The notes below the pieces were generated by a model. It saw only the letters and a program-made list of their open reading frames with translations, searched no databases and was not told where the DNA came from. DNA of 26,434 bases from Candidatus Fermentibacterota bacterium (GTDB lineage Bacteria > JAFGKV01). The stretch lies in NCBI GenBank assembly GCA_016928395.1, contig JAFGKV010000271.1, positions 1-26,434 of the forward strand. Reading direction: 5' to 3'. Shown piece by piece: positions 2,741 through 7,698 of this stretch. A program made the translations under genes and the position numbers. The stretch's first letter is position 1. Each line of letters opens with the position of its first letter.

Positions 2741-4573
2741 TTAGTGGCTGCTTGCGGTATAGTACCTCCCCAAAGAGCGATCACAGGCCGCACACCCGTA
2801 GTCGGCCCGGCAATGCGCTTCGAACTCGGCCGGGAAGTTCTTCACCAGAGTTTCCAGCGGCATGATGGGCGACTGGCCCAATGCGCACAAAGAGGTCTTC
2901 TTCATGAGGGCCGCCGTCTCCCGCATCTTCTCGACATCCGCCCACTCGGCGGTCCTCTGCGCTAGGCGCCGGGCGGTATGATGGAGTTGGGCGGTGCCAA
3001 CGCGGCAGGGCACGCATTGCCCGCACGACTCATGCTCGAAGAACGACATGGTCTGCACCAGAAAATCCACAGGGCACGTGGTCTGGTCGCACACCAAGAC
3101 CACGCCGGATCCCAAAGTAACGCCGTGTTTCATGGGAGTATCGATGTCAAGCGGAAGATCCATCAGATCCTCGCACAGCACACCACCGGCACTGCCTCCG
3201 ACTTGGGCGAACTTGAAATGAGAACCCTCGCGAAGCCCCCGCCCATATACATCGATGATCTCGCGCAGCGTAGCGCCCATGGGAAGTTCAACCAGGCCGG
3301 TCCGGTTCAGAACGCCCGAGAGGCAGAATAGCTTGGTGCCGGGGCATGACAGCGTGCCGACCTCCTTGAACCACTCCGCACCCCTCTGCAGGATCATCGG
3401 CACGGACATGAGGGTCTCCACATTATTGACCGTGCTGGGGCTGCCCTGGAACCCGGCTTGCCCCGGGAACGGAGGCTTGAAGCGGGGATACCCGCGGAGA
3501 CCCTCCATGGAGTTCATCAATGAGGTTTCCTCGCCGCACACATAGGCGCCGCCGCCTTCCTTGATGAACACATCGAAACTGAAGCCTGATCCGAACAGGT
3601 CTTCCCCTAGGCATCCGTCCAGGCGGGCCTGGTCGATGGCCCTCTGCAGGATGTCGATGGACCGGCGATACTCTCCCCGGACATAGATATACCCGACGGT
3701 GGCATCGGTGGCGAAACCACAGATCGCCATACCCTCCAAGAGCAGGTGGGGATCGCCTTCCATGAGCACCCGGTCCTTGAAAGTCCCGGGTTCTCCCTCA
3801 TCGGCATTGCAGATGACGTACTTCTGCATGGGGCCCTTGACCACAAACGACCACTTGAGGCCCGCGGGGAACCCCGCGCCTCCGCGGCCGCGAAGCCCGG
3901 AGTCCTTGACGACGGCCACCACGTCCGCTGGGCTCATTCCCACCGCGCGGCGCAAGCCGGTATAGCCGCCCGCCTCGCGGTAGCGTGCGATCTCGCCCGG
4001 ATCCACGCGGCCTATGTGGGCCAGCAGTCGCGCGGTCTGCCGCTCATCGTGGATGATGGTGGCAGCCGCGGAAGTCTCCGGCCCGCACCCTTCACCGTCG
4101 CCGGATGCACCTGCCCGGTAGAATTGCAGGATGGAGGCCAGCCGTTCCTCGGTGAGATTGCCATGAAGATCGTAGTTCACCATCATGGCCGGCGCCACCG
4201 AGCATGCGCCCAGGCACTCGCATGTTTCCAGATAGAACATGCCGTCGGCAGTGGCTTCTTTCTCCCTAATGCCCAGGAGACGGCCGATGGCTTCCAGTAC
4301 ATTGATGGCGCCCGAGGTGTGACACGGCGTTGACTTGCAGACCCTGATTACGTACCGCGCCCTGGGAGCGGTCTTGAACATCGTGTAGAAGTCGACAAAA
4401 CCGGCCAGCGCGCTGGGAGGCAGATTCATCTCCTCCGCAACCCCCTCCAGTACGGTCGGCGCCAGGACATTGCGTTCGGAGAGCGTCTCCAGTTCGCGCA
4501 GGATCGCCATCAGGTGTTCCCGCTCGCTCCCGAACTTCTCGACGACCGAGCGGATAGTGTCTTTTGCGATCAT
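2741..4573 (-). CDS. fdhB: NAD-dependent formate dehydrogenase diaphorase subunit, NuoE-NuoF fusion
   Basis: A 610-aa fusion. Residues 1 to about 155 are a NuoE-type thioredoxin-like [2Fe-2S] domain with ligands C79, C84, C120 and C124. Residues from about 180 are NuoF, with the FMN/NADH-binding glycine loop GRGGAGFPAGLKW (229-241), the CNADEGEPGTFKDR segment, and a [4Fe-4S] site C517-x2-C520-x2-C523 plus C563. The role is to pass electrons between FdhA iron-sulfur centres and NAD(H). It lacks the C-terminal two-cluster ferredoxin extension found in many HydB/NfnB-type relatives, ending instead in a short tail with three Cys (HCRADYGCAAC). Its ATG shares bases with the fdhA stop (ATGA, 4573-4570), so coupled translation is likely. 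NAD versus NADP use cannot be told from the sequence. Confidence 0.93.
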   Translation of the reverse strand: MIAKDTIRSVVEKFGSEREHLMAILRELETLSERNVLAPTVLEGVAEEMNLPPSALAGFVDFYTMFKTAPRARYVIRVCKSTPCHTSGAINVLEAIGRLLGIREKEATADGMFYLETCECLGACSVAPAMMVNYDLHGNLTEERLASILQFYRAGASGDGEGCGPETSAAATIIHDERQTARLLAHIGRVDPGEIARYREAGGYTGLRRAVGMSPADVVAVVKDSGLRGRGGAGFPAGLKWSFVVKGPMQKYVICNADEGEPGTFKDRVLMEGDPHLLLEGMAICGFATDATVGYIYVRGEYRRSIDILQRAIDQARLDGCLGEDLFGSGFSFDVFIKEGGGAYVCGEETSLMNSMEGLRGYPRFKPPFPGQAGFQGSPSTVNNVETLMSVPMILQRGAEWFKEVGTLSCPGTKLFCLSGVLNRTGLVELPMGATLREIIDVYGRGLREGSHFKFAQVGGSAGGVLCEDLMDLPLDIDTPMKHGVTLGSGVVLVCDQTTCPVDFLVQTMSFFEHESCGQCVPCRVGTAQLHHTARRLAQRTAEWADVEKMRETAALMKKTSLCALGQSPIMPLETLVKNFPAEFEAHCRADYGCAACDRSLGRYYTASSH

Positions 4574-7287
4574 CGCACATCCTCCCGGGGATACACCTTC
4601 TCCACTTTGCAGGCACAGACCTTGAACTCCGGGATCTTGCAGGCCGGATCCAAGGCATCGATGGTCAACACATTGGCGGCCGCCTCCCGGAAGTGGAAGG
4701 GAATGAACACCACATTGGCCTTGGGGCGGTCGCTTATGAAGGCCTTAAGCCGGAGGCTGCCCCGGCGAGTCGAAACCGAGACGATCTCCCCGTCGCTGAC
4801 GTCGATGTTCCTGGCATCGTTGGGGCCGATCTCCACGTAGGGACCGGGCACTATCTCATTCAGGATTCTTGAGTTTCGGCTCATGGTGCCCGTGTGGAAA
4901 TGCTCGAGAACCCGGCCCGTGGTCAAGACCATGGGGTATTCGGGATCCACTTCTTCCGCTGGTGGGGTGTAGTCAATGGGTGTAAGAAGGCCCAGACCCC
5001 TGGCAAAACGGTCTTTGTGCAGGAACTGGGTACCCGGATGGCCCTCAGTCGGGCATGGCCACTGCAGAAGTTCCCTGTCGAGCCGTTCCCAGGTCATGCC
5101 TGCATACGACGGGGTCACGCCCCGCATCTCGTCGAAGATCTCCTCGGCGCCCCGATAATCCCACTGGGCGCCCAGCCGATTCGCCAGAGCCTGTGTGATC
5201 CACCAGTCCTCGCGGTCGTCACCCACCGGCTCCACCACGCGATGCATCAGCTGCACACGCCGTTCGGTATTGGATACCGTGCCCTCCTTCTCGAGGAAAG
5301 AGTAGCTGGGAAGCACCACATGGGCGTATTCGGCGGTCTCGGTCAGGACTATGTCCTGCACGATGAGCAGGTCGAGGGCCTTCAGCGCTTCGATGACGTG
5401 ATGCTGATTGGGATCAGACAAGACCGGGTTCTCACCCATGATGTAGAGCGCGCGAACTTTGCCGTCGATGGCCGCATTCAGGGATTCCACGATAGTCAAA
5501 CCGGGCGTCTCCGGAAGGGAGGGTACGCCCCATGCCTGCTCGAACTTCTTGCGGGCATCGGGATTGGTCACCGGCTGGTAGGCAGGGAACACATTGGGCA
5601 GACCGCCCATGTCGCACGCGCCCTGCACATTGCTCTGGCCGCGCAACGGGTTCACTCCTCCTCCCGCGACGCCGAGGTTGCCCAGAAGCATCTGCAGATT
5701 GGCCACCGATTTGACACCGTTCACACCGGACTTGAACTGGGTGATGCCCATGCAATAGTAGAGTGCCATGGGTTTCGCAGCCGCCAGCAACCGCGCAGCC
5801 GCCACAATCTGATCGGGATCGGCAAGACCGCAGATCCCGGCAACGTATTCCGGTGTGTACTTCTGCAGCGTCTGCTCCAAGGCCTCGAATCCCTCGCAGC
5901 GGGTTTGAACATAGGCTGCGTCGTGCAGGCCTTCGCGCAGGATGACATGCATCAGCCCGTTGAGCAGGGCGATATTCGTACCCGGCAGGATCTGAAGGAA
6001 AATATCCGCGTATCGCGCCATCTCGATCTTCCGGGGATCAGCGACCACCAGCTTCTTCCCGCCGTGGATCACCGCCTTCTTGATCATGGACGCGATGACC
6101 GGATGATTTTCGGTGGTGTTCGAGCCGATAATGAAGAACGCCTCGGAGACCGGAATCTCACGGATGGAGTTAGTCATGGCGCCCGAGCCCAACGTGGCCG
6201 CCAGACCGGCGACCGTTGAGCTGTGTCAAAGCCGTGCGCAGTGATCAACATTGTTCGTGCCGATCACTCCGCGCATGAACTTCTGGAGGAGGTAGTTTTC
6301 CTCGTTGGTGCACTTGGCCGATGTAAAGGACATGACGGCATCAGGCCCATGCTCGGCCTTGATCGTGGCCAGGCGACCCGCCGCATAGTCAAGGGCCTCA
6401 TCCCATGTGGCCTCGACGAGCTGGCCTTCCTTGCGGATCAGCGGGGTCTTCAGACGCTTCGGGCTCTGTACGAAATCGAAGCCAAAGCGTCCCTTCACGC
6501 ACAGGTGCCCGCGGTTCGGGCCGTGGATCGACCCCTCCGCCTTCACCAGTTGTCCTTCGCGGTTGGTGAAGAAGTTGATCTGACAGCCGACACCGCAATA
6601 GACGCACACGCTGTTGCGAGAGGTGAGCTCCCAGGCCTGTCCGCGACCCAGGACCGTCTGAAATGATAGTGCGCCGGTTGGGCAGAGCTGCACGCACTGA
6701 CCGCACTGCACGCACTCCGACTCGCCAAGCAGGTCTCTGATGCCAGTGGTCAGATGGGTATGGCTGCCGCGACCGGCGAAATTCCACACCCTGCTCAGTT
6801 GGATCTCTTCGCATGCCTTCACGCAGCGTCCGCAGAGGACGCAGCGGTTCTCCTCCCGCCGCAGACCCTCACTGGAGCTGACATCCCGCACGCGAAGATT
6901 CCGTGGCGCGCTGCTCGGCGGAGGCACATCAATGCCGTGCTCGAAGCACAGCGACTGAAGCTCACACGCACCGTTGGCCTCACAGTACAGGCAGTTGTGA
7001 TCACCCTCGGCCAGGAGGAAGTTCAGTATGCCTCTGCGCATATCGAGAATCTCGGGATCCACGGTGACGATATCCATCCCAGGCGCCACCGGCTCCGTGC
7101 ATGCCGTCTTGTACATGGTCTTGTTCACGCGCACGGCGCAGACACGGCACGCGCCGGTGCGGCTGATCTGGGAATGGTAGCACAGGGTCGGAATCCGCAC
7201 GCCATGGGCAGCGGCTGCATCGAGGATGGTCTGGCCTCGTTCGCATTCCACCGTTTTCCCGTTAAGCTTGATCTGTATCGTTGCCAT
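4570..7287 (-). CDS. fdhA: Selenocysteine-containing formate dehydrogenase catalytic subunit (UGA read-through)
   Basis: Two open segments (7287-6229 and 6225-4570) are one gene of 905 aa interrupted by an in-frame TGA at 6228-6226. The context is [27 protein letters not shown], exactly the Sec/Cys active-site position of FdhF/FdhA enzymes (residue 354). N-terminal clusters follow the NuoG-like order: [2Fe-2S] C36, C47, C50, C63; C99/C102/C108 with H97; two ferredoxin-type [4Fe-4S] sites (C149/152/155/159 and C192/195/198/202); then the molybdopterin-proximal [4Fe-4S] C228/231/235/263. The remainder is the molybdopterin oxidoreductase and dinucleotide-binding domain. It interconverts formate and CO2 at a Mo or W bis-MGD centre, probably in the cytoplasm since no Tat signal is present. 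GGGAAGG precedes the ATG at 7287. Confidence 0.95.
6191..6228 (-). promoter_or_regulatory. bSECIS-type selenocysteine insertion hairpin in fdhA
   Basis: Immediately 3' of the UGA (6228-6226) the mRNA can form a stem-loop. An inner 4-bp stem CGCC/GGCG (6211-6208 with 6202-6199) closes a GGUCU apical loop, and AACG/CGUU (6217-6214 with 6194-6191) forms the lower stem, with an irregular internal part. The GGUCU loop starts 18 nt after the UGA, as in E. coli fdhF, where this loop binds SelB. The geometry and codon context make read-through far more likely than a nonsense mutation. Confidence 0.88.
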
Positions 7288-7296
7288 TGCCTTCCC

Positions 7297-7698
7297 TCAG
7301 GAACGTGTACGTTGGGCCAGAACTTTGCGGATGGTCTCGACGAGTTTCTTCGGTGCGATGGGCTTTTCCAGGAACATGTCGACGGGCCAGGGCCTGTCGG
7401 TGATATACTGGAAGGTTTCCACGTAATCCTTCGACTGAGACATTGCCGTCAGCATCACGATTGGAATCTCCTTGGTTTCCTCGCTGTTCTGCAGCTCGTA
7501 CGCCAGGTCGAAACCCTCCGTGTCCGTTGCCATCATCACGTCAAGCAGAATCAAGGCCGGCGCTTGTTGGGCAATCCTTGTGCGGGCCTCGCTCCCATCG
7601 CGGGCGGCGGTGACATCATAGCCTTCCGCCTCCAGAGTGATCCTGACTGCTTCAACCAGATCCGGATCATCATCGACTACGAGTATTTCCTGGGCCAT
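7297..7698 (-). CDS. Single-domain response regulator (CheY-like receiver)
   Basis: A 133-aa protein made only of a receiver domain. It has the acidic cluster D9-D10-D11, the phospho-acceptor D53 in LILLDVMM, the Thr switch in IVMLTAM, and the conserved Lys in FLEKPI. There is no output domain. A roughly 15-residue stretch between the Thr switch and the Lys motif (SQSKDYVETFQYITDRPWPV) is longer than in CheY. It ends 9 nt before fdhA, so it is probably the first gene of the fdh operon. No histidine kinase is adjacent, so its partner is unknown. AAGGAG lies 11 nt upstream of the ATG at 7698, a little far but usable. Confidence 0.9.
   Translation of the reverse strand: MAQEILVVDDDPDLVEAVRITLEAEGYDVTAARDGSEARTRIAQQAPALILLDVMMATDTEGFDLAYELQNSEETKEIPIVMLTAMSQSKDYVETFQYITDRPWPVDMFLEKPIAPKKLVETIRKVLAQRTRS

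Follow-up and report, generated by a model that had tools for sequence, protein, structure and literature searches.

Results

The fdhA reading frame and its in-frame UGA codon

The window analysed here, a 26,434-nucleotide stretch of a Candidatus Fermentibacterota genome, carries on its minus strand a gene, fdhA (4570 to 7287), for a formate dehydrogenase alpha subunit of 905 codons plus a stop. Translation from 7287 to 4570 with TGA read as selenocysteine (Sec) encounters a single internal stop, at codon 354, and the frame terminates with a TGA at 4572-4570. The minus strand from 6240 reads TGC GCA CGG CTT TGA CAC AGC TCA ACG, in which the internal TGA occupies 6228-6226, the position given in the first-pass annotation, and its protein context is CARL-TGA-HSSTVAG. 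Routine gene callers had been expected to break the gene into a 353-residue and a roughly 540-residue piece, and ORF calling did give 353 aa (7287-6226) and 540 aa (6192-4570, with a TTG start). Reading through the UGA thus corrects an annotation in which one enzyme is cut in two. The computed mass of the read-through protein is about 99.2 kDa, a small correction to the approximately 98 kDa proposed earlier.

The read-through protein matches TIGR01591, formate dehydrogenase alpha subunit, with 850.8 bits against a cut-off of 666.25. It consists of an N-terminal NuoG/HydA-like Fe-S region (about residues 1-210) and an FdhF-like catalytic domain (about residues 226-898) that is 43% identical to E. 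coli FdhF over residues 226-898. In the alignment with FdhF, codon 354 falls on Sec140, so that the first-pass annotation was right to place the TGA at the catalytic Sec/Cys position; the same codon is aligned in the homologues. The equivalents of His141, Arg333 and Lys44 are kept, as are the four 4Fe-4S cysteines. The solved structures that match FdhA over nearly its full length are formate dehydrogenases, for example 6tg9 and 7e5z.

The genes that surround fdhA

All of the neighbouring genes described here lie on the minus strand. Directly upstream of fdhA is a gene for a single-domain response regulator (7297 to 7698), which is likewise found upstream in the sister genome and in L053, both described below. 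Downstream, the ATG of a gene for a 610-residue protein (2741 to 4573) overlaps the fdhA stop codon; the product resembles a fused NuoE-NuoF (FMN/NAD, Fe-S) diaphorase subunit, with matches to TIGR01958 and TIGR01959 that are both below the cut-offs. A NuoEF-type gene is also found downstream of fdhA in L053-L056 and L064. In the window, the fusion gene is followed by a listed 326-residue ORF for a formate/nitrite (FocA-type) transporter (1512 to 2492; TIGR00790, 225.8 bits, just below the cut-off of 232.3), and an Fnt-like gene adjoins fdhA in L057-L060. The last of these genes (268 to 1401) would encode a 377-residue MobB-MobA-like molybdenum cofactor guanylylation protein, its matches being below the equivalog cut-offs. 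Because fdhA is followed by the NuoE-NuoF fusion, the formate/nitrite transporter and the MobB-MobA-like protein, a soluble NAD-linked formate dehydrogenase is suggested. FdhA and the NuoE-NuoF-type subunit probably form this enzyme, its NAD linkage being judged from gene content, and the adjacent formate transporter and MobBA protein would serve it.

A stem-loop follows the UGA codon

The RNA beginning with the UGA is predicted to fold into a 15-bp stem-loop (-23.8 kcal/mol) whose apical loop, GGUCU, begins after 18 nt. The element lies within 6173 to 6231 of the minus strand, with the stem at about 6222-6186 and the loop at 6207-6203. In the sequence record of E. coli fdhF, the corresponding stretch is TGACACGGCCCATCGGTTGCAGGTCTGCAC, and the spacing from UGA to loop is identical. 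The fold and the fdhF record therefore both agree with the earlier description of a stem with a GGUCU loop 18 nt past the UGA, as in fdhF. The fold energy of the exact 44-nt SECIS element gives z = -3.67 (1 of 200 shuffles was as good), but the signal fades to non-significance in longer stretches, with z = -0.05 for a 91-nt stretch. Folding energy by itself is thus weak evidence, and for this reason we relied on comparative evidence.

The element matches Rfam SECIS_3 over the full length of the model (E = 1.9e-10), but with only 48 bits against a gathering score of 63. At gathering thresholds, Rfam found no match in the window, and SECIS_3 emerged only when an E-value threshold was applied. 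Sister fdhA and three other Sec-type relatives also lacked a match at gathering thresholds, which suggests that the SECIS_3 cut-off misses this clade.

The stem-loop is conserved in Sec homologues and decayed in Cys homologues

The codon aligned with UGA354 could be read in 104 related loci, and was TGA in 53, TGC or TGT in 47, and another codon in four distant paralogues. The sole stop among 905 codons thus hits the one catalytic codon, and 53 related loci share TGA there, which rules out placement by chance. After removal of duplicates, 52 Sec loci and 46 Cys loci were compared. Standard base pairs form at the apical positions 18-30, 19-29, 20-28 and 21-27 in 98-100% of the Sec loci, as opposed to 41-76% of the Cys loci. 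The GGUCU loop is present in 51/52 Sec loci but in only 9/46 Cys loci, and 49/52 and 12/46, respectively, are predicted to form an apical hairpin. The sole exception to GGUCU in the Sec group is a TGA homologue (L089, 5057-5105, plus strand) with the loop GGGCU.

Covariation was examined in an alignment of 45 Sec loci, using a five-pair helix, 500 shuffles and slid versions of the helix. Paired cells made up 98.7% of the total, and 31 cells had changed on both sides, compared with 10.9 +/- 1.9 after shuffling. The covariation score of 0.436 (shuffled, 0.146 +/- 0.019) was reached by none of the 500 shuffles and none of the slid versions. Shuffle tests can be inflated by relatedness; a better control is provided by the Cys homologues, which are concordant. 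These results show that the SECIS helix and loop have been kept in the TGA set, with compensatory changes, and have decayed in the Cys set.

The genome of Candidatus Eisenbacteria isolate Prado127 (locus L065), which by contig position and identity corresponds to G001, a member of the host's genus, encodes a sister FdhA with 88% protein identity and TGA at the same codon. Differences between host and sister fdhA at codon positions 1, 2 and 3 number 36, 22 and 165 upstream of the UGA and 25, 12 and 120 downstream. Since most of the differences are at third positions on both sides, the part downstream of the UGA is under protein-level constraint. A further FdhA of the sister, less closely related (48%; L050, G001:C393:1875-4013, minus strand), again has TGA at the Sec position; at the threshold that gave this locus, the host assembly yielded only one FdhA match. 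A bin labelled Acidobacteria (L053, JAGOHA010000001.1, 3593-8529) contains a Sec-FdhA that is 82% identical, likewise accompanied by this response regulator and a NuoEF fusion; either the genes were transferred horizontally or the bin is mislabelled.

Sec-decoding genes in the host genome

The host assembly is a 94.2% complete draft of 4.79 Mb in 343 contigs. The first-pass annotation had stated that the organism must own selA, selB, selC and selD, and had proposed a search of the genome for all four, with the absence of selB and selC to count against the selenoprotein reading. Both of these are present: selB at C24:7719-9593 (342 bits, over the cut-off), and the tRNA-Sec gene at C59:4177-4270 (76.8 bits; ARAGORN anticodon tca). 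Two selD genes, on C199 (395 bits) and C22 (370 bits), also exceed the cut-off. For selA the expectation was not borne out as stated, the gene not being found in the 94.2% complete assembly with either the family model or the SelA of the sister genome. A weak match at C22:3939 was rejected as SelA, since it belongs to a cysteine desulfurase/SclA-like protein. Complete selA genes are present in the same-genus genome G001 and in a genome of the same family (G002). In G001, selA shares a 4.1-kb contig with genes for two further proteins, one of 389 residues and one that is methyltransferase-like, for which the best matches in the host assembly are not close (35% and 33-40% identity). As the neighbours of sister selA are absent as well, a stretch missing from the draft is the simplest reading, and an assembly gap is the likeliest cause of the absence of selA.

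The selD gene on C22 (L021, about 4980-6027, plus strand) has an in-frame UGA at the Sec position (TAAGUAAK) and is a second likely selenoprotein gene. By eye, its neighbours are the cysteine desulfurase/SclA-like gene and a gene for a YeeE/YedE-like membrane protein. Rfam gave no SECIS match for this selD, so its SECIS, if any, would be of another type. The selD match on C199 (L024, G000:C199:54349-55278, minus strand) lies within a 783-residue open frame and possibly represents a fusion protein.

Discussion

The gene described here is almost certainly that of a Sec-containing, molybdopterin-dependent formate dehydrogenase alpha subunit, in which UGA354 would be recoded by way of SelB and the stem-loop. 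When the ribosome meets UGA354, SelB carrying Sec-tRNA(Sec) would bind the stem-loop immediately downstream, and Sec would be inserted in place of termination. Sec354 is the expected metal ligand at the active site of an enzyme that would presumably convert formate to CO2, or catalyse the reverse reaction. That Sec is actually inserted at UGA354 is very probable, given a conserved TGA at the Sec position that is shared with the sister genome, a covarying SECIS element that has decayed in Cys homologues, and the presence of selB, tRNA-Sec and selD. Two observations count against it, namely the missing selA and the SECIS_3 score under the Rfam gathering cut-off.

One could envision fdhA as a pseudogene with the TGA as a nonsense mutation, given that the frame does contain a stop codon and that selA was not found. 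The same TGA, however, occurs in the sister genome and in about 50 further loci, the 905 codons contain no second stop, and downstream of the UGA purifying selection persists. A sequencing or assembly error at a TGC or TGT codon could likewise be envisioned in a fragmented 343-contig draft, but TGA stands at the same codon in independent assemblies, and the loop and helix are of the Sec-homologue rather than the Cys-homologue type. On the grounds of conservation, we rejected both explanations, each of which we consider extremely improbable. An alternative that accepts recoding is that selA has truly been lost and that another PLP enzyme, such as the cysteine desulfurase/SclA-like protein encoded beside the Sec-type selD, makes Sec-tRNA(Sec). 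The absence of selA from a 94% complete assembly and the position of the SclA-like gene next to selD would fit this scheme. We think that it is very unlikely, if slightly less so than the preceding two, because full selA genes exist in same-genus and same-family genomes, the two neighbours of sister selA also lack close counterparts in the host, as a missing stretch would explain, and cysteine desulfurase-like genes near selD are already known (PMC5029168).

With Sec recoding by SelB as the preferred reading, FdhA can be compared with known systems. E. coli FdhF (formate dehydrogenase H), which works with hydrogenase 3, has Sec at the aligned active-site position and the same catalytic and Fe-S residues, but it lacks the N-terminal NuoG-like Fe-S region, the alignment starting at residue 226. 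In the fdhF SECIS, the GGUCU loop is likewise found 18 nt after the UGA, although that element matches Rfam SECIS_2 whereas the element described here matches SECIS_3. The NAD-linked FdsABG-type enzymes (PDB 6tg9, 7e5z/7vw6) match nearly the whole of FdhA, the NuoG-like N terminus together with the catalytic domain, and have a NuoE/F-like partner, in our case with NuoE and NuoF fused; they presumably carry Cys where FdhA has the UGA. Sec-FdhA proteins of Spirochaetes and of Syntrophorhabdaceae/Deltaproteobacteria bins (L054-L064) are 64-71% identical and share the positions of the UGA and the SECIS. Their partner genes vary: fdhA is followed by NuoEF in the spirochaetes, and several syntroph-type bins have a formate transporter there.

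Among bacterial selenoproteins, FdhA is the most widespread (PMC13188914), with 1276 examples in 822 organisms (PMC5029168). The Sec-FdhA described here is a routine member of this commonest family, and its mechanism holds nothing new. In the literature collection that we searched, no paper was found that mentions both Candidatus Eisenbacteria and Sec decoding. The host shares its genus with a Candidatus Eisenbacteria bin, and the present finding adds this relative of Candidatus Eisenbacteria to the Sec-decoding lineages.
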